NCBI RefSeq assembly: GCF_000003815.2
Contig: NC_049980.1
Span: 16,887,613 to 16,951,612 of the forward strand
Source of the DNA: Branchiostoma floridae
Taxonomy: Eukaryota; Chordata; Leptocardii; Amphioxiformes; Branchiostomatidae
Length of the DNA stretch: 64,000 nucleotides
Reading direction: 5' to 3'
Shown here: piece after piece, positions 39,736-61,493 of the stretch
How the letters are laid out: each line of letters starts with the position of its first letter
Position numbering within the stretch: the first letter of the stretch is position 1
Translations under genes and position numbers: made by a program
The notes under the pieces: generated by a model
Seen by the model: only the letters and a program-made list of their open reading frames with translations
Database searches by the model: none
Told to the model about the DNA's origin: nothing

Positions 39736-41308
39736 AGAAGTTGCAACGTGTATCGTTATCAGCTGTCTTAATAAGGGGTAGTCCTGGCAATTCCACCAAT
39801 CAGGGGACAGCAAGCTGTCGGTGTGTATCTCATCCAGTACGTGTCAAGAATGGGCGCCATGAGGGGAGCGCTTATGCGGAACTCCGACGTGGAACCATAT
39901 GGAACCGTACACGTGGGATTTCAGAATGTTTCTGGTCATTATCCACGTTTAGAAACTGACAAAGACATACAAGACAGCTGTTTTCAAAAAATTACCAATC
40001 AAACTTGCGGCATTGCTTTGTACCACCAGGTGTGTGTGCTTCTGCCCACAGTTACAGAAAACGCTTCACCAACATACTTGTATAGTCTGATGATACTACC
40101 CTGTAAGACGACGCTCATACGACCCACTTCACATTCATGTTTCGTGTACTATGTTTCATGTATATGTAGTAAGTGTACACCTTACTGTGAAGTTTCTACC
40201 TGTTAAGGCTATATCCTGTGCAACATTTTCTACAATATTTTCAAATTAAGTAACAATTGAGCAACCCTACTTTTATTTTACACAATGATTTGACTTTTTT
40301 ACATATCAAGAGTTCTATTATTAGCTAATTTTCTACGCAATTACTGTAAAACAAAGCGAAAGCCGATTGCACTGCAGTCACATCCGCGATGTAGCTTGGT
40401 CGTGCCCAGCTGACGTCCAATTGGTCTCCTAATCTTGGGTAACAGCTGACACAAGGATCATGTCAAATATCAATATTCTAAAGTCACCGAAATTTCTTTT
40501 CACAAAGTACAGGTAAGTGGCGGATAGCTATAACGCTCAGTAGATTTTATGTTGTGTTACGGTACAGAATATAAGTATAGTTATTGAAGGAGACAAACAT
40601 CTTAGATTTATCTTCGATGACCTGAAATTTTCCTGGTAAACTTCGTTTGGTTTCATATTTCAGAGCTCAGACACGGCTGTCCCGATTGGTCCTTCTTCTT
40701 TCCTGGGGGCATTTCTGAACACTTTTGTTGCCGCCTGGTTAACATGTGTTATAAGTCGCGAGCACCAGGTTAACCGCTTTCTGGACGATACAAGCGGCTA
40801 ACAACGATTGGTTTAGACACAGGGTTACTTGTCATCGAACAAACTATTCAACCAATAAGAGATAACCACGCAAGGAGAAACCTGCGTTTGTTTCTTTCAA
40901 CTGATTTCATATCAAAAGCTAAAAGATGAAATTTCCGTAGAGTGAAAAGTTAACACTTGCTACACTTCTCGCTTGCCATGTTGAAGCTACCGTGGTCAAA
41001 TAATCATAAAGGATGGTTTTATTACGCACGTTTGCATTAAATATTCAATTAGATCTTTTACAATGATGCTGGCCGGGGTGCTATGCCGTTATTTGTTTCA
41101 TTCTTTCGAAGCTAATATCTATTAATCATCATTGAAGGCCAACGCATGGACTCTATCGCTCTGTACGTGTATGTGTTAACCTCCTTGTGTATACCAACCC
41201 TGGACTTTGCTCTTCACGTGACCGACAACGGTTATTTGCTATAGTGAATACGCAGCCATACGTCTGCCTCTGGATACTTAGATCATTACTACCAATGGTA
41301 CATCTGCT
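39736..41308. other. Intergenic region between cyclophilin A and the NHL gene
   Basis: Presumably holds both divergent promoters. A GACGTGG core is at 39886-39892. A 127-codon plus frame at 39823-40206 resembles nothing I know and is Cys-rich only near its end, so it is not called. No repeat is seen. Confidence 0.5.
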
Positions 41309-42142
41309 ATGGAGCCTTCTACTAAGCTATGTGCTAGTCCTATTTCCACAATAGGTACGACCGAAACTGGACAGGTACAGTTCAAAAACCCCGTAGCAAT
41401 TGCAGTTGGAAAGGAGGCAACCCTTTTCGTCGTTGACCAGGGAACTAAAACTGTCCATATGTTCAGCGCAGAGGGTAAAGCTGTGAGTACATTCAGCATA
41501 CCGACAGCTTGGGCACGGGGTGTGGCGGTCAGCCCGACCAGCGGGAATATTCTCATTGTTGAGAACGAGAACCAGTCCGTGATGACGTTTACACCGTCTG
41601 GAGAACTCGTTCACTCGTTCCACAGTGACCACTTCTCTTCATGCTACGGAATCGCAGAGGCAAACGACGGGAGAATTTTAGCTGTCGACTACGCAGAACA
41701 TTGCGTCGCCATGTTTGAATCAGACGGAACGTTCATACGAAATATCGGCAAACGTGGCGATGGGGAAGGCGAATTTTACCGACCGTTTTTCATCGCCATG
41801 ACCAAGTCTGATGGGTTTGTCGTGTCTGACTCGTATAACCACAGACTTCAAACTTTCAACAAAGATGGCCATTTTGAAAGAGCTTTTGGCCAGAGGGGCG
41901 AGACAAATGCAGATTTTGAGCTCCCCTTAGGGGTAGGGGTTGGGGGACGAGGGGAAATCGTTGTGGCAGACAGGGATAACCATAGGTTACAGGTGGTTGA
42001 TACTAACGGAAGTCACGTGACCACGATTGCTAATGATGACGGCAGATTGGATAGTCCCGCCAACATCGCCGTGACGTATGATGGGCATGTTTACGTCATC
42101 AACGGCAAGGATAAGTCGGTTGATAAGTTCAAATACAACTAA
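41309..42142 (+). CDS. Intronless NHL-repeat beta-propeller protein (277 aa)
   Basis: The frame consists almost entirely of six NHL blades. Each has the pattern (N/L)P-(I/V)AV-...-(V/I)(V/A)D-...-(N/H)(R/S)(L/V)...F...G. Clear examples are NPVAIAVGKEATLFVVDQGT, RPFFIAMTKSDGFVVSDSYN then HRLQTFNKDGHF, and LPLGVGVGGRGEIVVADRDN then HRLQVVD. Six blades is the size of a complete propeller, as at the C-terminus of TRIM2/3/71, but no RING, B-box, coiled coil or signal peptide precedes it. NHL propellers bind proteins or structured RNA; the ligand here cannot be told. The single exon suggests retroposition or a lineage-specific family. The start is the first ATG of the frame. Confidence 0.88.
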   Translation: MEPSTKLCASPISTIGTTETGQVQFKNPVAIAVGKEATLFVVDQGTKTVHMFSAEGKAVSTFSIPTAWARGVAVSPTSGNILIVENENQSVMTFTPSGELVHSFHSDHFSSCYGIAEANDGRILAVDYAEHCVAMFESDGTFIRNIGKRGDGEGEFYRPFFIAMTKSDGFVVSDSYNHRLQTFNKDGHFERAFGQRGETNADFELPLGVGVGGRGEIVVADRDNHRLQVVDTNGSHVTTIANDDGRLDSPANIAVTYDGHVYVINGKDKSVDKFKYN

Positions 42143-42895: not shown

Positions 42896-44714
42896 TCACG
42901 TAGGTTTAATAAGGTCGGGTTCGATGTCATATATGATGGCCTCCGGCGCGTCCAACACGTAGGGTTGTGTCACGGCATCAGAGGAAGAGTCGGCCACACG
43001 GACTAGCTTGTACGGCAGACCGTTAGAACTGCTCCTCATCTCTCCGATATTCCGGGCGATATCCTGGGGAGGGCGGCAGTAAGGAATCATTACCGTCGTG
43101 AATGGGGAAAATGAATCAAAGCACATACACATGCGCACATGCATGTACAGAGATTTGCCGGTGTGTCTGTCTGTAGGCAGCATATAAATCAAAGGTAATT
43201 ATATATATATATATAACTTTAATATGATTTATGGAAATGAGGACATAATTTGCATTATCAATGACATTTGTAACATTTATAATTCACCCGAAAAGAATTA
43301 AGGTACGAGGTTGTACCAACTTACCATGCCCTTGACGACCTTTCCGAAGACGACATGTTTCTTGTCCAGGAAGCGTGATTTGGTCAGCAGGATGAAGAAC
43401 TCGGAGTTGTTGGAGTCTGGTCCACTGTTGGCCATGGACACCCAGCCTGGCCCGGCGTGACCCAGGCGGAAGTCTCGTCAATGANNNNNNNNNNNNNNNN
43501 NNNNNNNNNNNNNNNNNNNNNNNNNNNNNNNNNNNNNNNNNNNNNNNNNNNNNNNNNNNNNNNNNNNNNNNNNNNNNNNNNNNNCTGTAGGAGGAATGGG
43601 GGCGAGATGTACACGTGTATTAGTTCCAAGCAGAGGTCACGCTCCGGCTTGTTTTGGACATCTTTTAGGCGTTTAGTGTGCATGCCTTTCCATTTTCTTC
43701 AGTTTTTCTTAATAGATACTGGCCTAAGAAAAAAATAAATAAAAGGTCGACAAAACGCCTCAAAAAGTTCAAATCAAGCCAGAGTTCACCCTCTGCTTAG
43801 AGAGTATATTTATATCATTAAAACACAACGATACACTTGTCATACTACAGTACAGTGTAACATCTTTATCCTAGGACCTACTTGTCAGAGTCAACATGCC
43901 AAACAAGACTCACCGCCTGTTCCATCGTAAGACGAGATGTCCCCTCCCTGGATGATGAAGTCCTGCACCACGCGGTGGAAGTACGTTCCGTTGTACCCGA
44001 AGGTAGGCTGGAGGGTAATACAGGGAGATGTAAAATAGATTGATATTGTCACGACTCACGGGGTAGTCTGGTCCCACATAACCACCCCCTCTCCTATAAA
44101 GAAAGTGACGGTGACCATATTAGGTCATAGGTTGGTACTTTTGTTGCAATCACATCACTTATGACTTATGTCGGACCGTCGTCCAAACTATCTTACAAAA
44201 ACGCTTAGGTCAATTCTCTTTTAGTGGAGTACGTACATCATTCCTGACGTTCCCCTGTGCCAGCTTGTGGAAGTTCTCCACAGTTATAGGAACAGTCTCC
44301 CCGAACAGCGCGATCACAATTCTCCCCACAGGCTCGTCATCGATCTGTGGAGGGAGCACAGACACATAAAATGACGGTAAGAAAGCAGACATGAAATGTT
44401 GTGAATCATACTTTTGGTCCACGAAAACATACAGTTACGAAGTATTAGTTTGGTATTTTTGTACCTAAAAGGCAAACCAGAGGAGGGATGACTGTATATG
44501 TTATTCCTGTCACAATAACAGGGTAGCTTTAGGTAGTGGTGATGTAAAAAGCCGGTACCTCTATGTCGAACCACGCCTCTTTGGTCACCAGGAGTGGGTG
44601 GGGCTCGTCATCTCCGTCCAACATGTCTTCCTGTTCATCATCTTTAGAAGATTCTAACAGGACGGCCCGTGTCATAATGAGCAGGACGGCGCCGGCCAAC
44701 AGTAGGGCCTGCAT
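42896..44714 (-). CDS. Secreted/ER cyclophilin-type peptidyl-prolyl isomerase B (interrupted by gap and one-base frameshift)
   Basis: Paralogue of the gene at 37501-38987. Exons: 44714-44559 (signal peptide [20 protein letters not shown], acidic linker, [10 protein letters not shown]), 44344-44237 ([20 protein letters not shown]), 44007-43914 ([17 protein letters not shown], catalytic HR and the FxxQ missing in paralogue A), 43584?-43325 and 43063-42896. The fourth exon starts at a CTACAG acceptor abutting the N run and is read after it as [20 protein letters not shown] then [14 protein letters not shown]. CypA Trp121 is again Phe. The segment just after the gap needs one extra base to join IDET to FRLGHAGPG, which looks like an assembly error. 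An intron splits WFDIE from IDDEP; paralogue A has none there. The C-terminal tail differs and lacks KDEL. Confidence 0.9.
43471..43484 (-). other. Probable one-base deletion next to the gap
   Basis: The minus strand reads GACGAGACTTCCGCCTG. Family homology requires D-E-T followed by F-R-L in one frame, which needs one more base. In the FRLGHAG frame a TGA stands immediately upstream. A contig-end sequencing error is the simplest reading; a pseudogene is possible. Confidence 0.75.
43485..43584. other. Assembly gap (100 N) inside cyclophilin B exon 4
   Basis: A placeholder-size gap. By alignment with paralogue A the missing coding sequence should be only about 30 bases, encoding the GG(K)SIYG-like stretch. 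Confidence 0.9.
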
Positions 44715-48410: not shown

Positions 48411-49240
48411 GAGATAGATAGATAGATAGATGGTTTATTGCGCAACAATTGTATCAGTGACAATGTATGGCAATGTATATACAATAAAAGGTACAGTCTA
48501 ACACTACATATATAAGTTATATTGCAATAATTTCGGTTACTACAATACTAGTGGAAAATACGGCAGGTATTACAATTTCGGTTACTACAATACTAGTGGA
48601 ATCTACGGTAGGTATTAAAGGGAACTATAACATACATCAGTTGGGTATATCTAAGCTACTAGCGACATAATATTTGTCAAAAGTTATTTAGGAATGGTAC
48701 AGTTTCTTTTTTGCATAGCGTGATAAATGTATTGACCTATGTACATAGATATAGAGTCATGACATGATAAGAGTATATTGAAAGTGTCATTACTTGTGTG
48801 TGGTAGAGACATATTTGACTTACATGTGATTGATTTCATTAACTTTTGTCTTTCTTCATTGTATGTAGGACAGGTCATAATGAAATGATACTCATCTTCA
48901 ATGCTGGTGTCATCTTGACATGAAGGACATAGTCTCTGATCTGTTGGTATTTTATGGTGGCGACCTTTTTCAATTTCGAGGCAATGTGCACTTATTCTTA
49001 GTTTGGTAATGCTGTTAACAAAGTTTTTGTTTTGAATAGATAAGAGGTAGTTTTCTATGCCAAACTGAGTTTTTATTTTAGAATATACTTTGAGTTTATT
49101 GTTGTTTCTTATTTTTTGTCTCCATTCAGAGAGGAATGCGTCCTTCATGCGTTCCTTAAATGTGTTTCCAAAATATTTGGCGTCAACAGTAGGATTGAGC
49201 CAAATATTTCGGAATCCATGTCGGCTTAGCATATCTTGAA
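48411..49240 (-). mobile_element. 5'-truncated LINE (non-LTR retrotransposon) relic, 3' end only
   Basis: A 182-codon frame (49232-48684) matches the region after the reverse transcriptase in LINE ORF2 proteins: the helical KLRISAHCLEIEKGR block and a zinc-knuckle-like CX2CX10HX4C (CPSC...H...C, followed by PTYNEER). A stop lies just upstream, so the RT and endonuclease are missing, as expected for 5' truncation. It is followed by about 250 bases of 3' UTR, AATAAA (48434-48439, minus) and a (TATC)n tail at about 48411-48431. A 45-bp tandem duplication lies in the UTR. Confidence 0.82.
48529..48618. repeat. 45-bp tandem duplication in the LINE 3' UTR
   Basis: AATTTCGGTTACTACAATAC starts at 48529 and again at 48574; the copies differ at a few positions (GGAAAATACGGCAGG against GGAATCTACGGTAGG). 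Confidence 0.9.
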
Positions 49241-49388
49241 CATGTCAACATGGGCAAACATCTAAGAAATGAGTCAACATAGTGAAGAATGTTCCTGTGT
49301 AGCCACACACGACCTCTAAAACTCAGGAAAACTGGTACACCGTATCCAACATCAATCCATTATTGCGAGTCTTTTTCTCTCTTTACAG

Positions 49389-49452
49389 AGGTCTGGGTTA
49401 TTCCTGTCTATCAATTTTGGACAAGACAGCTACAAGCTGATAGGAACGAACG
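49389..49452 (+). other. 5' UTR portion of the otopetrin first coding exon
   Basis: A polypyrimidine tract and CAG at 49388 precede AGGTCTGGG; the ATG follows 64 bases later. This implies a spliced leader whose first exon is not confidently located. Confidence 0.5.
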
Positions 49453-52400
49453 ATGCCTGCGATGTTGGACGCCCCGCTGAAGCCCTACCAGCACCATAAC
49501 GCCAGGAGGGTGGAGCCACGGCCAATAGAACAGCTGCAGAAGTCAAGAATATCCACCAGACCGCAACAGAACCTTCAAGACCAGGACATGATGTTTGAAC
49601 GGAACAAATCAGTCTATTCCAGAAGCCAACATGTCATTCCGACCGCTAACGGCATGGTGGAACGAAACAAGACTTATGCAAGGTACCAGAGAGAAAATCC
49701 TGTCCAGGACATGGCAGAACGTGCCAGTCAGGCTTCTTCGGTCTGCTCCGATAAGGAACTCTTCGCTTCTAGACGGAGCAGTGTGGTTAGCTCAAGGAGG
49801 TCCTCAGTTTCCGAGGAGTATTGTGGACAGGTAGGTGGCTTTATCTTAATTTTTGGAAGTTAATCTGTTTCTTCCTTTCGATTGTTTCCCTATAGGTATT
49901 TTTGGTGCTTTATATTAGGTGCTTTATGATACGTTGGTTAAACTACTAGTATGCTTACTACATTGAAAGTAGGCACCAGAACTTTCTCTCTTTCAGAAAT
50001 CAAATTAAGCCCTTCACATTTGTTTCACAGGTTGAGGAAGATAGGGAACCAACCCCAAATCAAAACACATTCCCTAACGGTACACTGGTAACAGAAGAGG
50101 ACGGTGCTGGGGGTGTTGAAGACACTGACAGCCCGTCAGACGACAAGTAAGTTTCATCTGCCTGTACTTGTGCCTATACAATATCTTCTTTGTCGCGTCA
50201 GCTACAATGGTAAAATGAAGGCACACTCACTCACAGGTCTAGTTGCACGTGGTGCGAGGACCTGACTTGGTCCACTTAGCTTCACCAGGAAAGGTGGAAT
50301 GATACGTTTCAAAATACCAGTAACGATTATACTCAGTTTATGCATACAAACCCACTGATTTCGAAAGCATACTGAAATTGACTTATCATAGAAGAGAGAA
50401 GACTTTAGCAAGACAGGATGTTACTTATTCGCGAAACTCTTGTTCCGTTCACAGGTGGATGTTGCTTCGCATGTTCGGAGTCCTGTATGGACTGTTGATG
50501 TTTGCTGTTGGCACCATGTTGCCCGCAGCCCAGCTCTTCTCGTCTGACATCTCCCAGGCAACCGTGGAGGCGTTCTACCTGTACCTGTTCCTGGTGGGCG
50601 CGCTGTGGATGGGCGCGGTGCATGCCTGCAGCATCATGGCTGCTCGCGGCGGACGAACTGTTGACAAGCCGGACTCAACCGTCAACACTTACCTAACAGG
50701 TGAGGCACGACTGAAGTATCCTTGAAGGAAATCTCAAGATTTCTGGACATTTTCTTTAAGCAAGAAAGCTTTGACAAATTTGAACGGTTGATCTATATGT
50801 TTTGACGCACATGTACTCGTTGTTTCAGGAGCAGCGTCCTTTTTCGGTTTCTGCACCATTCTAATTTCTGCGTTCAAGTTCGGCACGTATGTCTACTCCG
50901 ACGCCAACGACGACTCAGGCGGAGCTTGCGAAAACATCCTTCTGGCCGTGACACCTGTGTGTGAGGCGGTCTTCACTCTGCTCCTGGTGCACCACCTCTG
51001 GCACCACGCCTGGAGCAACAGGACACGTCGCGGCAAGCTTCACGTGCTGACAAGGTGGGCGTCGTTTTGTGGCTGATATTTCACTGCTAAGAAAATGTTC
51101 AAATTGCAGTTTCTGTGTCAAGTATATATGGTGTAGGCGTCTAATACTGTGGTGGTTCATTTTGCGTATTGAATAACGGTGTATCACAAATGAAATCATA
51201 ATGACGAAGGTCATTTTCGTGTCCTACAGTTTCGGGGTCATGCATACCGTTGCTACGTGCGGCTGCGCCTGGATACGCACCGTGATCATCGAGGCCTGGA
51301 TAGATGTAAAGCGTCTGACCCCCGACGACACGCCCAGCCTAGCACCCTCTACAGACGTGCCTGCGGCTTTCGGAGTCTCAAACTGCTCGTTCAACGGTTC
51401 TGGACTGCCGGTTGAATCTGTCACGACATTTGCATTGAACACCAGCAGCGCCACCCCAGCAGCAGTGGTGCGACGGTCTGTTGAAGACGAAGTCGAAGGT
51501 AAGAAAGAGAAAGAATATACTTAAAGTGTCGGGTGTCAAGTAATGGCATTGTCTTGAACATCTTGTACTTAAACAAGTCACATTGTGACTAATTATGATG
51601 CTTACTCATCTGTCCCCCTCAGTATTCAACATCACCGAAACAACAAATGCGGCCAATATGTCAGAGGCGTCTATGGACTGCCTGAGAGAAAGGGCGTTCT
51701 TGACCACGCTGGACCCCCTTCTGTATCCTAGCAACGTGGAGTTCTACATCCTCAGTGTTGGCCTTATTCTAATCCTTTGGAGCAAGATGGCGGAGGCGAA
51801 CGAGGTAGTGAGCCCTCCTCGACGATGGTCCATGGAGAAGTCTAACGGAGGAACCGTTCTGAGCTTCTTGCTGTTCGTCGTCACCATCTGTGTCATCGTG
51901 TTATACCACAACGACCCGAGCCCTGGCAGCGCTGCCTTCGTCGTCTACTACGCTCACAGAATCGTTCTTCTGCTGACAATGACGATAGCTTGTGTGTTCA
52001 CCTGCGTTCGGCGACGTCGTGCCGTGGAGAAAGGTGGGTGGACCCTTGACCCTGAGCGGGATAATCGACTGGGCATGATCATCATCCTACTGTGCGTGAC
52101 GACGATCTACTTCAGGGATCTACTCACCGCCGTGGCCGCCATCTTTCTGAACCAACCCGAGCTGATACCAGGAATAGTCCTGATGGAGGCACTTTTGGAT
52201 GTCGTCTTGGTAACGACGCAGTCTGCTGTCGTGCTGGACACGTTAAGCAGGATCCCGCCCACCGCTGAGTTCTGCCCGGATCTGACCCGACAAGCCGTCG
52301 TCTTCCTGGTTCTCTGCAACGCCAGCCTGTTTGTCATCTGCACTAACGACGCAAATGACCACGGGACAGACTTGGTTCAGATTGAGTACTTTGGTGTGAT

Positions 52401-52497
52401 CATGTGGTCCGTCCTTCGCAACATAGTACAGCCCTTTGTGATATTTCACCGATTCTATTGTTCTGTGTCCTTCATGGAAGTCTGGCTACGAGGCTAA
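49453..52497 (+). CDS. OTOP: Otopetrin-like proton channel (702 aa, six exons)
   Basis: Otopetrins are 12-TM proton-selective channels. Exons: 49453-49830, 50031-50146, 50455-50699, 50829-51054, 51230-51498, 51623-52497, all GT-AG and phase-consistent. Residues 1-165 are a hydrophilic, Ser/Arg-rich cytoplasmic N-terminus. TM1 is about 166-190 (RMFGVLYGLLMFAVGTMLPA), TM2 about 206-226 (YLYLFLVGALWMGAVHACSI), TM3 to TM5 within 246-345, including FGVMHTVATCGCAWI, which matches the FGLMHTLATNL signature. A 100-residue loop with N-glycosylation sequons (NCS, NGS, NTS, NIT, NMS) follows. TM6 to TM12 are in the last exon, with VVYYAHRIVLLL and the C-terminal otopetrin motif VIFHRFYCSVSFMEVW. A strong acceptor (CTCTTTACAG, exon from 49389) suggests an upstream non-coding exon. 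The start is the first ATG in the exon. Confidence 0.92.
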
Positions 52498-52846
52498 CAA
52501 CATATTCATGTGTCACAATCATTTGTATATCGGACGATATTTCTAACATTGACATGATGTACTTGGAGCTTGATTTTTCTGTTAATGTACATGTGATTCT
52601 TGACTGTTTTCATTTCTCTGTTTCTAAACCATGTACATAGTTTTTTTATATCTCCACGTTTTGAAAGTTAACTGAAAGTGGTTATGTTGTAACGTTATAT
52701 GCAAACCATCCAAATTTCAATTGTTGATATTTTTCAACCAACGGAGAAACCGATTTCAAAATAGAAAGAGACAGCTTGGATTTCTTCTAACCACCTTTAA
52801 TTTGTATATTTAATATCATCCATTAGCACAAGAAAATGCGAAGCAG

Positions 52847-54010: not shown

Positions 54011-54031
54011 TTTGTTGACTTTTCGGACAGT

Positions 54032-54259
54032 TTACACCCTCGATTCGTACATGTCAATGTCGTTCTGCAAACTCTCCATCTCTTCGACGGCTTTGATGCT
54101 CTCTTTGTGCCACGTGCTGCCAGGGCCACCGTTCATCAGGAAAGGCGAGTTGGAGTCCCTGTAAACGAGCGCAGGCGCGGGTCCAATGTTCCATCGTGCC
54201 ACAACAGTGGTTGTGAGTGTCCCTTCACCGTGTAAACCGTGTCCGACGCCATGCCCAAA
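54032..54259 (-). CDS. Orphan coding-like segment, possibly a terminal exon
   Basis: A 76-codon open stretch without a usable ATG, ending in a stop at 54032-54034. The second half reads like protein: APALVYRDSNSPFLMNGGPG, then KAVEEMESLQNDIDMYESRV. The lower boundary is the stop; an AG with a poor pyrimidine tract at about 54226 is the only candidate acceptor. It lies 0.8 kb downstream of the filament gene stop on the same strand, so it could be an alternative last exon, the last exon of an unseen gene, or a relic. I recognise no family. Confidence 0.25.
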   Translation of the reverse strand, partial: FGHGVGHGLHGEGTLTTTVVARWNIGPAPALVYRDSNSPFLMNGGPGSTWHKESIKAVEEMESLQNDIDMYESRV

Positions 54260-55080: not shown

Positions 55081-56278
55081 CTACACGGTCTCGTAGATCT
55101 CCACGTCCCAGTCCTGTCCCTCCTTCTTCTTGTGCTGAACCACAACCTTCCCGTCAGCCACGTCCATGGCCAGCTCGTCAGGGTCAGACAGGATGTACCC
55201 GTCTCCGCGGATCTACAGCAGGAAGTATTGTGTTGTCATAAAGGTGCATAGATCAGGCGACCAGTTGAGCGACCAAAATAGATTTGGCTGATCATTGGTT
55301 TTATGATTTAAGAACAACACGCGATGTAAAATGATGCTGTGAAAGACACCAAAGACATAAAACTTGATTTCGGTCTTTGTCTATGAAATTCGTTGAGCGA
55401 TCCGTCAAATTTCGGTCGCTCAGTGGTCGAAGTGAAAAAGGGGTGTCAGACAGAGGGGTTACCGTGGATTATAATTACTACGAATAAGCTTATTAAGATA
55501 ATTCTAAAGCTCTGCTCTTCTGACGGCCTGTGTGATCTCAATGGAAGGAAGGCACAGTAATGAGCATTTTGTATGGGGGATACTTACGATCCACTTTTGG
55601 TCTTGCTTGCCCGTTTTCTTGGCCACCTTCACAGCGCCTCCTGCCGTAGCCTCTGGGAGATGCAGTACTTGTCCGTTCTGTCTGTTTACCAGGAGACCAT
55701 CGGTGTAGGACCACAGTTGACTGTCACTGGAATTAAACAGAACATTGGAACGTATGTACCTCTTGGTTAATCTTCTAATTCAACATGCTTTGATTGTCCG
55801 AAACATTTTGTCCCCACGCGCACCCTTCAATTTTCTATTCAACCTGGACAATAAAAAACTGAAATGTCTCATGATCATTTTCAATGAAGTGTGATAGATA
55901 TATAAAGTGTAAGAACCTGCGAGGAGATTTCTTCCCTGCCAGGACTGCCTGGGGTCCATCAGGGCCGTTCTGCATCTCCAGGACGTCTTCTGAGTCACGG
56001 AATGACAGGAAAAACGTGCGGCCCTGAAACAAAAAATACACTTTCTTGTCCGCCTCTGAGAGGAAACAGTGAAAAATAAATCAAAACACGAAAACAAATT
56101 ACAGTGACAACTAGAAATGATAAAACTTACCTTGAGCAGCCCTGCGATGTTCTCACTCTGCACCGTCATGCGGATCACCCCAGTCTCCTCGATCTTCAGA
56201 TCCTCCTTACTGTCCTCCAGATCGTCCACGATCATGGATTGCCTGCTCCGGGAGTAACTCATGCGGGACGTATCCATT
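55081..56278 (-). CDS. Filament exons 7-10: tail linker and beta-trefoil
   Basis: Exon 7 (56278-56131) is a Ser/Arg then acidic linker ending SENIAGLLK in phase 0. Exons 8-10 encode the trefoil. Repeat 1 begins FFLSFRDSEDVLEM and ends DSQLW; repeat 2 begins GLLVNRQNGQVLHL and ends QDQKW; repeat 3 begins GYILSDPDELAMDV and ends GQDW. All three share the order beta-hairpin, Gly turn, (V)xxxKK, QxW. Only repeat 3 keeps an Asp at the usual sugar-contacting place (MDV), so lectin activity is uncertain. A general beta-trefoil of another class (fascin-like) is an alternative, but three QxW favour the R-type. Confidence 0.85.
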
Positions 56279-59200
56279 CTGGGGGGAACGAACATTCCTC
56301 TCATTCAACTGTGGGATATGTGTGCGATAGTATGTCCTTGATAATTCGCTGAACTATCAACCAATATCTTGTGTCTGTGAGTAAATTAGCACATTCAGAC
56401 AATCTACGCGAGCCCAGACTAAACAGATAAAGCAGCAAGCATCAATAGCCCTACCGTGTTTCCTCGCCCTCCAGTAGTTTCCTGTACGCCTGAATCTCCA
56501 CATCCAGGGCCAGCTTGACGTTCATCAGCTCGTTGTAGTCCTGGACCTGTTTCGCCATCTCGTTCTTGATCTGCTTCAGCTCGTCCTCCAGACTGCGCAC
56601 CATGGACTGCAGCTGGTCAACATCGCCGGTGGACCTGCTCTCCAACTCACGGGCACTCTTCTCCAGCAGGGCGTTCTGACAAAAAGGGGAACAAAGAATT
56701 ACTAAAAGAAACTACTAGATATACGCACAATTGTGATGATAGGTAAAACGACTAGTTTGATGGACATGGATACGTAAATATTTGGTTATGAAATAAAAGT
56801 CATGGTTTTGGGACAATATACTTGAAGACTTGTCTTGAAAAAAATGTAGATATCATAAAGTGTGCGATATATAGACAGGCTATGTATTAGATGAGATGCA
56901 TCCCCTGTCCAAAGATTCCAAAGTCCATATCATATACATGGGTTTGTAGTCTAATTGCCTCACCTTGCTCTTGGCCGTGTCCACCTCGCTGGTGAGCACG
57001 TGAACTTGACGTTTGTTCTCCAGAGCCTCCTGCCTGGCCAGGCGCAGCGCGTCCTCCGCCCTGTCACACTTCTCCGTGATGTCACGCAGCTGGGGAGGGA
57101 CAGATCACATAGGAGTATTTCATTAAAGCTAAATTCGTGCTTATCCAATGCATCCAATTACTATTCATACCTAAACACCGAGGCGAAGTTATGTACAATA
57201 TCCAAAAGATAGAGTTTCAAAGGACTCACGACGAAAGACACTGACATCACTGTCTACTTTCAAAAACGCTTATTTAATGATCAGTTGCTGCCATAATTGG
57301 ATGACTTCCAAGAAGAATCTCTCCTCTGCACTGCGGTTTCATGAAGTAGCTAGACTACCATAGGTGAGAATAGCAAATCGGACACGAGTGGAGCCGCAGA
57401 TATCTTACCTTGGACTGGTACCACTGCTCAGACTCGTCCTTAGTCTTCTTAGCCAGGGCTTCGTACTGCTTCTTCATGTTGGCCATCGCCATGGCCATTT
57501 CGTCATAGATGCTGCGGCCGCTGTCGATCTGCACCACCGCCTTCTGCTCCTCCAGCTGCTTCTGGAGCGCTTCGATCTCCTGTAGTTTCAGGGAGAGGGA
57601 TAGGTGGCGTTGTGTGATGGAACGATCAGTTGTGCATACTTTTGTAGATGTTGATCGTCCAATGTTGCTATTTCATCAATTATTTTGCCAGTTAGTATTA
57701 CGCAATCTAACCCTTTTCTAACATGTCAGTCTTAACGCGTACCTGTTGGTGGATTTCCTTGGAGAAGTCCAGGTCTTGCAGGGCTGTTTTTAACCTCGTC
57801 TCCATGTCTTGCCTAGCCAGATCCACCTTATTCAGTTCCTGTAAGGAGATTTTGACCAAAAATGTTTCTTTTGTACGCATTCAAAAGATAAACAATCATT
57901 TGCATCGGATATATGGGAATATTTCAAGGTAAGACCAATAAAGAGATGAGCTTTATCGGGATGTACAGAAATATTGCGTAAAAAGTTTACCATTGTTAAC
58001 CACTGATTACACATTCAAGCACATTCATTCTGTATACAACTTCGAATTCCGCCGATTTTTTGTAAACAAATGCTCACCTTCCTGGAGCTGTTTAACTCAG
58101 TCTCAAGGTCCTGGCGAACTCGCTTCTCCTCCCCCAACCTGGAAGAGCGGGTATGTTTCAGTCTTGAAATCAAGTGCATATACGAACAACGCTATTGTCA
58201 TTAAACACCATAGTCGTTTGTATTTTGTGAAAAATCATGTTCGCCTGTATTTTATGACATCGACATCAATACGGATGCACATTGTTGCCAGTTTGAGAGG
58301 CATTTTCCAAGGCGCTAGCAAATTTCTTTAAACTTAGCGATTAGTAAAACAAGCAACACACTTTCCCCTGTCATTTCTTCAACAACATTACCGTATTCAA
58401 GCCACATCTAAATACACGTAAATGGCCTATTGAAGTAGGTTTAAGCTCGAGAAAGAAATCATACTTTCCATACATAACGTTATGTTCGACTTAATTACAG
58501 TTTTGTATTTCCCTACGGTTAGTACAATATGGATGCTGTTCTTATGTTTTCCGTGACATGATTCATGAATTTTTTGTCGGCCCGTCCAAACGAAATGCAT
58601 GGATCGGATATTTGTGTGCTGCCAATTCATTGGCCAACACGTACAACCAATTTCTTAATGAAACACCTGGTAATTGCAGTGGTGAACACAAGTGAAATTA
58701 CTCCCATGGCGGCACTCACTCTCAAAGTGACGGGTTTATGGACACGGACCACACGAACAGGTGGAATAGCTCGAGGAAACATCGCTGAAATTACAGCCGC
58801 CTACAGGGTCGTTATCCGCCCATATTCGCGATAATTTTACACAATTTGTAGACGTAAATGTATGACACGATTTGCGAATGGGGGCAATGACCTGACATAC
58901 TCTTTAGGTTTGCGGAGAAAAAAACATGGAAAGTCCAATTGATGACTTTTAGGTCAATTGGACTTAAAAGTTTGATTAAACTTAGCGGGGAACCAAACAA
59001 TTGCACCCATCGACTTATAGACTTCACCGAAAGTTTGTAATGTTCAAAGAAATCCTTTTGCCAAGCGTCTTTACAATCAAAAAGATGTAAAATAAGACTA
59101 ATAAGTTTTTCGAACGAAAATTGTAAAGTCCCTCCGTTTTGCTTGAAATGTGCATATTTTTTTAAGTTTCCAAATAACGAACGAACCCGGTTCTTCTGGC

Positions 59201-61493
59201 TGCATTTGTATCCACTTTCAACATTTCCTGCTACATATGAGCTTAACTAAAATCAAACAAACCCAAGTGTCTCTCATAGTCTTCATCATTCAGTTTGTAA
59301 GTGTTCAAGCATCAGTGAGCATCAGTGAAAGCACCAATCACTTCTTAAGTGAAGGCATGATTGGAGAAAAGTGTGACGCGACCCGGACACCTTTACGTGA
59401 TAAACTGCACTGCGTGCCTCGTGAATTGTGTCAGGGTGACCCCTAGCCGTTGTTAACGCCCCAGCTTCGGGCGAAAGCTGTGTAACTTCCCCATCTAATG
59501 ACAGACTAGGCACAACTGTTACCTTTGTGCACCAGTACTTAAGAACTAATTTGATGTACTTTGGTGTCAACAACCCGCATGTAATGATAGTACATGTACT
59601 TTTTAACGGGAAAATGAACATTGGGCAGACAATTTTACGTTTTGTTGTTTGACTGTAAGACTTATGCAATATACTGACTTTCTAATCTGATCACTTGTTT
59701 GAGTAATCTTGTTTCATGTCTTTCACAGAATTCGAAGATAGGCAATTTGGCGAGTGAATGATGTCCTAGCCTTTCTTGTCGAGGGTTCAAGAGCGAAGAG
59801 AGATATACTTTAGTAAATCGGATGAAATACAACTCAGGAATACACGGTGAATGAACTCCACTAAGGGTGATGATTTGGTCTTCCTATAAGGATGATTTGC
59901 AGAGTTCAGTCTCGAGCTCTGTTAACAAAACACCAAACAACCGCCGCCTGTGGCTGGGCTTGGAGACGTGTTGACTCTTTTCCCAGACTTCAAAGCACAA
60001 AGATCGCATTTGCATCGGAAAGGAACAAATATCGTCGCCAGAGTCCATCTGTCTGTTGACTTTGTCAGGTCAGGGAATAGGCCATGGCCGTCAGGCGTGA
60101 TTGAAAGAGACTAAAACAAAATCTATAGAGGTCTTATTTTCGTGGAGTCCGGCAAGAAAGGCATATCCGATTTCAAACGGGAGGACGGTGGTAATGTAGG
60201 ACAACATCGCCGACATTTCGACATACAGACAATCTATCTTAAGTCCTCCACATTAGCATGCACAAGTATACGAATGCTTGCATTGTAAAAAATTATTAGT
60301 ATGTTTCAGATGTGGTTATACCGATACATTCTCCTCGCTAAAACATATCAATCAAACGCGTAAGTGGTCGTCTATTGTGTTTGTGCATAATATCGATCCA
60401 TCTCGCAGAGCGAACAATACAAAGATGGAGCTGTGAATGAGGTAGAAAGGACACCCGTCTCTGGCCTTTATGTCGTGATCCTCAAAATCAATTATACATT
60501 CCTCAAACAATATGTGTAGCATCGCATTACACAGCACGTACAATATGGTGGGCTATGAACACAGCGAGCAATTTGTACAGCATTGGGCACATTTATGAAT
60601 GTCTTCATTGTGCTACCGTCGTAGAAAAAAGACAATTAATAAAAGCAAGTCTAAATTCACTTCCTCTAAGGTATCCCCGACTTTAGCATAATACATGTAC
60701 AGCTACTATACACAATAAACAATTCTACCTACATACATGTACTTGAATACACTACAAAAAGAATATCAATGCATGTGCAATATTCGTTACAACATCTTTA
60801 TGTTAAGACTATCGGAGAATGTCATGTTACTTACTGGTGCCTTGTATGGTCCAGCTCCTCCCCCAGGGTGTCCCTGTCCACCTCCACGATGGCCTTCTCG
60901 TTGGAGAGGGAGTCGATGGCGCGTCGGAGCTCGCGGATCTCCTGTTCAAACATCTCTTTCATCTGGTGAAAGTTCTGGTGGCCAGCCTGGAGAGCCCGCA
61001 CCTCTATCTCCAGCTCCTCGTTACGGGTCTCCAGGAAGCGCACCTTGTCGATGTAGCCGGCCAGGCGCTGGTTCAAGGTCTGCATCTCCTCCTTCTCCTG
61101 GACGCGCAAGGCGTGGTTCTCGGCGATTTGTAAGGCGTTGGAGGTGGCTATAGCCCCGCTGATGGTGGTGGTGCTGGGGCGGGAGGCGGCGATGGTCGTG
61201 CGGCGCATGGTCGTGACGGGAGAAGGCCGGCTGCCTGAGAAGGACGTCCGGTTGTTGGTGCCTCCCCCGCCCAGTCGGTACGTCGTCGTCAGCGTCTTGG
61301 TGGCGGAGTTGTAGTTGGACATCGCCGGAGAAGTGCTGAAACGCGCCGCGTAGATCGAGTCGGTCATGCTTCTGGGCGATCCTGACAGTCTCGTCTTGGT
61401 CGGAGTCGAGGTTGCAGAGGGGCGGGGTCCTGGTCTCTGCACTGGAACGGTGTGAGAGAGAGTGGTGGTACTCTGGGTGCCGCTACGGCTCAT
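55081..61493 (-). CDS. Cytoplasmic intermediate filament protein with beta-trefoil (R-type lectin-like) tail (619 aa, ten exons)
   Basis: Exons: 61493-60835, 58138-58078, 57838-57743, 57579-57409, 57089-56964, 56675-56455, 56278-56131, 56023-55917, 55726-55588, 55212-55081; every phase fits. Residues 1-132 are a Ser/Thr/Arg-rich head. The coil 1A initiation motif is LNQRLAGYIDKVRFLETRN (140-158); the rod-end motif is KLALDVEIQAYRKLLEGEE (425-443). Coil 1B aligns with vimentin without the 42-residue insert of lamins and protostome filaments, so this is a chordate-type cytoplasmic filament chain. No lamin tail domain or CaaX box is present. After a linker (446-494), residues 495-619 form three repeats of about 40 residues, each closing with QxW (533, 573, 609), the signature of ricin-B-like beta-trefoils. 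Acts in the cytoskeleton; the trefoil ligand is unknown. Confidence 0.95.
56455..58138 (-). CDS. Filament exons 2-6: coil 1B, coil 2 and rod end
   Basis: Exon lengths are 61, 96, 171, 126 and 221 nt. Translations include EEKRVRQDLETELNSSRK, ELNKVDLARQDMETRLKTAL, YDEMAMAMANMKKQYEALAK, CDRAEDALRLARQEALENKR and the rod-end consensus. From memory, vertebrate desmin and vimentin have 61, 96, 162, 126 and 221, so the intron plan is conserved apart from three extra codons in exon 4. Confidence 0.95.
58139..60834. other. Filament gene intron 1 (2.7 kb)
   Basis: No exon, repeat or RNA is recognised. Short frames on both strands lack splice-supported continuity. Confidence 0.5.
60835..61493 (-). CDS. 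Filament exon 1: head, coil 1A and first half of coil 1B
   Basis: Encodes 219 residues plus two bases. The head is rich in Ser, Thr, Arg and Pro, as in assembly-regulating, phosphorylatable heads of type III filaments. The exon ends after VEVDRDTLGEELDHTRH with a GTAAGT donor, the same place where vertebrate type III genes break coil 1B. The start is the first ATG of the frame. Confidence 0.95.

Follow-up and report, generated by a model that had tools for sequence, protein, structure and literature searches.

What is a lectin-like fold doing at the end of an intermediate filament (IF) protein? The question is raised by a gene of the lancelet Branchiostoma floridae, which was found on the minus strand of a 64,000-nucleotide stretch of DNA; this whole stretch is called the window. 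A reading made from the letters alone (the sequence-only reading) had described the gene product as an IF rod fused to a three-fold QxW beta-trefoil. In our study, we examined the gene model, the fold of the tail, the residues at its sugar sites and its relatives in the genome.

Gene Structure and the Rod

The gene extended from 61493 to 55081 and contained ten exons on the minus strand, all with GT-AG borders, and their in-frame join gave a protein of 619 residues. Zero N was present between 55081 and 61493. Exon 1 (60835–61493) contained a Ser/Thr-rich head, coil 1A and a part of coil 1B, and was placed by its GT-AG border, its phase and a Filament match starting from residue 132. The gene model placed the rod in exon 2 (58078–58138, 61 nt), exon 3 (57743–57838, 96 nt), exon 4 (57409–57579, 171 nt) and exon 5 (56964–57089, 126 nt), followed by the end of coil 2 in exon 6 (56455–56675, 221 nt). 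Exon 6 was also found in the genome search with the Filament profile, where it ranked top among the 105 matches listed (E 7.5e-23). The sizes of exons 5 and 6 presumably match those of vertebrate type III genes.

Exon 7 (56131–56278) encoded a linker of residues about 445–494, and its end (GVIRMTVQSENIAGLLK) lay within the conserved tail unit. Exon 8 (55917–56023), 107 bases away from exon 7, contained the trefoil repeat alpha (residues 495–529 and a split codon), and its open frame had no Met before the exon. Exon 9 (55588–55726) contained QLW followed by repeat beta up to QKW and one further residue, and exon 10 (55081–55212) contained repeat gamma, whose motif was QDW, as well as the stop codon. 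The donor of exon 8 (CAG/GTTCTT, at 55917) scored −3.55 on a simple matrix, the lowest among nine donors, and on this score is the weakest point of the gene model. A second in-frame acceptor (TGACAG) was present six bases into exon 9 (from 55726), where a two-residue splice variant is possible.

The Pfam Filament profile (PF00038) matched residues 132–445 over its whole length (1–313 of 313) with E 4.8e-85 and 286.4 bits (cut-off 40), which confirmed the identification of the rod as that of an IF protein. The rod was 314 residues long, and the translation contained LNxRLAxYIDKVRFLE and KLLEGEE, which we take to be the IF consensus of the coil 1A start and the coil 2 end, respectively. The best PDB match of the head and rod was vimentin (E 1.1e-74), a point of likeness to the vimentin-type cytoplasmic IF proteins of chordates; the rod was presumably like theirs also in being without the longer coil 1B of the lamin type. 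Vimentin-type proteins have a short unstructured tail, whereas that of the window gene was a trefoil some 125 residues long. In lamins and lamin-like filament proteins of invertebrates, the tail is an Ig fold (LTD), which differs from the fold found here. The LTD domain was absent among the six Pfam families listed for the 619-residue protein at E up to 1, in agreement with the earlier statement that the tail is not a lamin tail domain. The likeness of the window protein to lamins and lamin-like IF proteins, in which the rod is followed by a compact all-beta globular tail, is one of analogy.

Fold of the Tail

The Ricin_B_lectin profile (PF00652) matched residues 509–611 with 29.9 bits in the full protein, just over the cut-off of 29, and the tail alone gave 35.2 bits (E 1.6e-8), so that the Pfam comparison proposed with the sequence-only reading came out above the cut-off in both forms. 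The QxW motifs were QLW at 533, QKW at 573 and QDW at 609, and the alpha, beta and gamma repeats contained 41, 40 and 36 residues, respectively. Shuffling the tail 200,000 times gave three QxW motifs spaced 30–50 apart in 2 cases, and the internal similarity of the repeats, with QxW kept fixed, was reached in 5 of 2,000 shuffles. The best PDB matches of the window tail alone were plant R-type lectin chains (E 4.8e-8). A profile of seven tails from the genome (described below) matched 73 different sequences in the PDB at E up to 1, the best being 9tpe_B (E 1.7e-16). Among the 60 of these 73 that were listed, all were by name of the ricin-B/CBM13 kind and included R-type lectin chains, ThreeFoil, the 29-kDa galactose-binding lectin, CBM13 xylanase modules, CEL-III, actinohivin and others; fascin and FGF were not named among them. 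Together, the PF00652 score, the three QxW motifs and the PDB matches upheld the proposed three-fold QxW trefoil, and the membership of the tail in the ricin-B class of the trefoil fold is well supported by these comparisons.

The tail was similar to the R-type lectins and CBM13 modules [(QxW)3, PF00652] in its three repeats of about 40 residues, its three QxW motifs and its significant profile match. It differed from them in having no sugar-stacking aromatic and no cysteine and in being joined to a filament rod. Fascin is comparable in that its beta-trefoils are cytosolic and act on filaments, but they are of another class and bundle actin, and it was not named among the 60 of 73 matches listed for the tail profile. 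No relatives of the tail were found in prokaryote genomes and plasmids, and a search of NCBIfam returned nothing useful.

Sugar-Binding Residues

The aromatic and Asp positions of the repeats, which we take to be the sugar-site residues of R-type lectins, were read by eye from the tail alignment. The register was taken from the PDB alignment for repeats one and two and from the family alignment for the third, and the alpha repeat of one member (C2c) was left out. The sugar-stacking aromatic was absent from all 20 repeats read in the seven members; its position was occupied by Ala, Glu, Thr, Cys, Gln, Asn, Lys or Ser. The gamma repeat of the window tail contained a His one residue past this position. 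The sugar-binding Asp was conserved in one of six alpha repeats, one of seven beta repeats and six of seven gamma repeats. A full R-type lectin sugar site (Asp, aromatic platform and Asn/Gln) was found in none of the repeats read. Cysteine was absent from the compared tail region in four of the seven members, including the window tail, as is expected in the cytosol; two cysteines per repeat are described for the R-type lectin class (PMC11212257).

The canonical lectin site is thus gone, and since the aromatic was missing from 20 of 20 repeats, canonical glycan binding is unlikely. The suggestion that a filament displaying many trefoils could bind glycans was disfavoured by the same count and by an Asp conserved mainly in the third repeat. 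Some trefoil lectins, for example CCL2, are described as binding sugar at non-canonical places (PMC3355094), so that even without its canonical site the tail might bind sugar in another way. A lectin function of the tail is not supported by the residues that we read.

A Family of Trefoil-Tailed Loci

The whole genome of 513,431,437 bases in 431 contigs was searched, and it holds at least seven loci with a trefoil tail, the window gene and at least six others; this count is a lower bound. The search with the window tail returned its own three exons and five further places with E from 0.0012 to 0.47. These values are weak when taken alone and gain their strength through location. Two of the five places, C2:18.375 Mb and C2:27.37 Mb, fell in stretches (L061 and L062) that had been picked from rod matches, downstream of the last rod exon, before the tail matches were known. 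A third place, on C9 (L065), had rod matches upstream on its own strand: a weak one about 2 kb before its alpha exon (E 3.2e-5) and others at distances of 14 and 19 kb. The chance that a random stranded position falls within 20 kb downstream of a rod is about 0.001 if the genome contains 40–60 rods, a number which is an estimate. The seventh locus, at C19:13.334 Mb (L054), was found with profiles of the three trefoil exons that were built without it and run on 9,829 open frames of selected loci; its beta exon had E 5.3e-11, and a rod exon (E 2.3e-21) was present 1.5 kb upstream. Genome searches with the tails of C19a, C19b and C9 returned only members of the same set of seven.

The rod was above the Pfam cut-off in the window gene (C2:16.94 Mb), in C2b (C2:18.37 Mb) and in C19b (C19:13.334 Mb). 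Exon by exon, the rod of C2d (C2:27.37 Mb) scored 37.5 bits and that of C9 (C9:14.24 Mb) 24.1 bits against a cut-off of 40. In C19a (C19:13.327 Mb; C19:13.3266) the nearest rod matches lay at distances of 11 kb (26.7 bits) and 17 kb on the upstream side, and the stretch between them and the tail was read in part. In C2c (C2:19.66 Mb; C2:19.658) the 3.6 kb read showed no rod, only one helical-looking exon without a Filament match. Rod exons were thus present upstream on the same strand in five of the seven loci, including the window gene, and in a sixth (C19a) only at 11–17 kb.

The spliced tails of all six paralogues passed the PF00652 cut-off (43.5, 29.2, 33.4, 33.2, 40.2 and 34.0 bits), the C2c query being without its alpha repeat. 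A genome scan with PF00652 on single exons returned nine places, none of which was the window gene or a paralogue; such a scan is blind to the trefoil-tailed family, and its count is uninformative on it. The QxW motifs were conserved in 20 of 21 cases across the seven loci, the third motif of C19b being substituted by AVW. At all seven loci the first base of the beta exon completed a split codon that lay two residues before QxW; the exon ended in phase 0 one residue past the next QxW, and the gamma exon opened in phase 0; the beta and gamma splice sites of the paralogues were selected among listed candidates. A phase-2 donor of the alpha exon matching that of the window gene scored above 1 in four of six paralogues. 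Only a weak phase-2 donor was readable in C19a, and none was found for the alpha exon of C2c.

The window tail was 29–33% identical to the other tails. In all 10 pairs among five spliced members, agreement was better at second than at third codon positions; the four-fold sites agreed in 41 of 123 cases and were close to saturation. Old duplicates under purifying selection show such a pattern. The paralogues with rods upstream and the shared borders of the beta exon point to an old duplicated subfamily rather than to a chance join. When 16 stretches of 6.5–9.5 kb at last rod exons were examined, three contained matches to the trefoil exons at E below 1e-3 and the other 13 contained none, so only some of the filament genes carry the tail; L052 and L064 overlap in this sample, L055 may hold the C19a rod, and distant tails such as that of C19a are missed by it. 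A dense cluster of a few dozen Filament-matching exons was present at C2:27.68–27.85 Mb, and four longer stretches taken from it contained no trefoil exon matches.

Coiled-coil exons were present in C2b between the rod end and the trefoil (L061:847–5400; C2:18.369–18.373 Mb), a part of which matched coil 2 weakly (E 9.9e-5), and a similar exon was found in the C19a region (L055:6682–6882; C19:13.3157 Mb; E 5.4e-6). Some of the exons in L061 and L055 resembled the end of coil 2 (LNRAKLALE..., LMNAKLALE...), and these two trefoil-tailed genes possibly have extended rods. Between the alpha and beta exons of C9, a Ser-rich open frame looked by eye like a filament head (L065:5095–5502; C9:14.241 Mb), possibly an internal start or a nested exon.

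Start of the Conserved Unit

The conserved tail block was found to start inside exon 7, about 20 residues before exon 8. A motif of the form G-x-I-R-M-T-x-x-x-x-[DN]-I-x-x-[IL]-L was encoded at the end of exon 7 in the window gene, and in C19b, C2b, C19a and C2c a motif of the same G-x-I-R-M-T type ran directly into the alpha repeat within one open frame; in C9 and C2d no such motif was seen. The four paralogues with the contiguous motif lacked the phase-0 intron that precedes exon 8, their frames reading through. As the motif and the alpha repeat are continuous there, this intron is not an insertion scar. The phase-0 boundary before exon 8 had been taken as fitting exon shuffling; such a signature at the exon 7/8 border was ruled out by the read-through in the four paralogues and by the earlier start of the block. 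The description of the cassette as the last three exons held for the trefoil, which occupies exons 8–10, but not for the conserved unit, which begins inside exon 7. The range first given (55081–56278) likewise covers the trefoil exons and also takes in exon 7.

Neighborhood of the Gene

The window also contained an otopetrin gene (49400–52500, plus strand), an exon of a cyclophilin-type isomerase (about 44210–44440, minus strand) and an NHL-repeat propeller (41282–42142, plus strand). A 186-aa open frame on the minus strand (48684–49244) looked by eye like the end of a LINE-type reverse transcriptase, and a similar open frame was present in L061 (7560–7985). On the minus strand at 54032–54259, a GC-rich open frame of 75 aa was found, with a plausible acceptor near 54160 (phase 2, by eye) and an ATTAAA at 54011.

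Discussion

From the rod, the tail of trefoil class, the exon borders that the paralogues share, the signs of purifying selection and the lack of the canonical sugar-stacking residue, all read from the genome, we consider that the window gene belongs to a lancelet IF family with a (QxW)3 beta-trefoil tail which serves as a protein-docking knob and not as a lectin; the probability of this reading is about 0.7. The rod would assemble vimentin-like filaments in the cytosol, and the trefoil tails would stand out on the filament surface at regular spacing. A trefoil in which the sugar platform is lost, with the QxW core and the third-repeat Asp retained, would most likely dock a protein, and the many copies per filament would give high avidity for it. 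The tail would then be a functional analogue of the lamin Ig-fold tail. The interposed coiled-coil exons of C2b, and the similar one in the C19a region, would set the trefoil further from the rod. Counting against the family reading, the rods of C9 and C2d were under the Pfam cut-off exon by exon, that of C19a was distant and that of C2c was not found in the 3.6 kb read; the AVW of C19b and the missing linker motif of C9 and C2d count in the same direction.

The main rival to docking is a role in assembly or bundling, where the trefoil contacts rods or other trefoils and sets the width, bundling or end-to-end growth of the filament with no outside partner. IF tails are mostly dispensable for assembly and the trefoil tails were strongly diverged, the window tail being 29–33% identical to the others, which counts against such a role; in its favor are the short motif before the trefoil, conserved in four of seven members and also read in a fifth, and the ability of trefoils to dimerise, as in the SeviL dimer (PMC7744527). 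We regard this role as possible and tentatively keep it behind docking. A tail that is present in some isoforms only is less probable. Here a last exon at about 54032–54160 would replace the trefoil in some transcripts, making the fusion optional; its acceptor is compatible with exons 6 and 8, both of which leave two bases, it is accompanied by the ATTAAA, and some cytoplasmic filament genes of Branchiostoma floridae, together with lamin, are alternatively spliced, the only remark of relevance in the accessible part of PMC4448529. The piece had no Pfam match at E up to 1, its PDB match was at chance level (E 0.24), its one match in the genome was itself, and it may belong to another gene.

A working lectin is slightly less probable still. 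The tail belongs to the R-type lectin class, the gamma Asp was kept in six of seven members, and non-canonical sugar sites exist in the trefoil fold (PMC3355094), so that many weak sites, perhaps in the third repeat only, could bind glycans, glycogen or O-GlcNAc proteins. Set against this are the missing aromatic in every repeat read, the rarity of the Asp in the alpha and beta repeats, and a protein that begins with a filament head and in which no signal peptide was seen by eye. It is highly improbable that exons 8–10 belong to another gene or that the join is an assembly error. The weak donor of exon 8 would suit either case, but the gene contained no N, exons 7 and 8 lie close together, the frame of exon 8 lacks a preceding Met, and the paralogues have the same order of rod and then trefoil.

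The docking reading also bears on what is known of IF tails, which outside lamins and lamin-like proteins are generally regarded as mostly unstructured. In the open-access literature, we found no description of a fusion of an IF rod with a trefoil, the catalogues of amphioxus specialists lying outside the search; within this range the result agrees with the sequence-only reading, which knew of no such description. The parts seen of PMC8733776 and PMC4793263 contained nothing on tails. Sequence databases may already display the two domains through automated annotation. We lean toward the view that lancelets possess an undescribed class of cytoplasmic IF proteins, encoded by at least seven old genes (most tails about 30% identical), in which a glycan-blind trefoil of lectin fold forms the globular tail; this would be a second, independent folded docking knob after the Ig tail of lamins. 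The trefoil-tailed IF proteins suggest that a lectin scaffold found a new use in the cytosol, and they are an instance of domain gain among invertebrates closely related to the vertebrates. As a duplicated subfamily of chordate IF proteins in which the tail is folded, they offer a natural system for asking what folded tails do on filaments.
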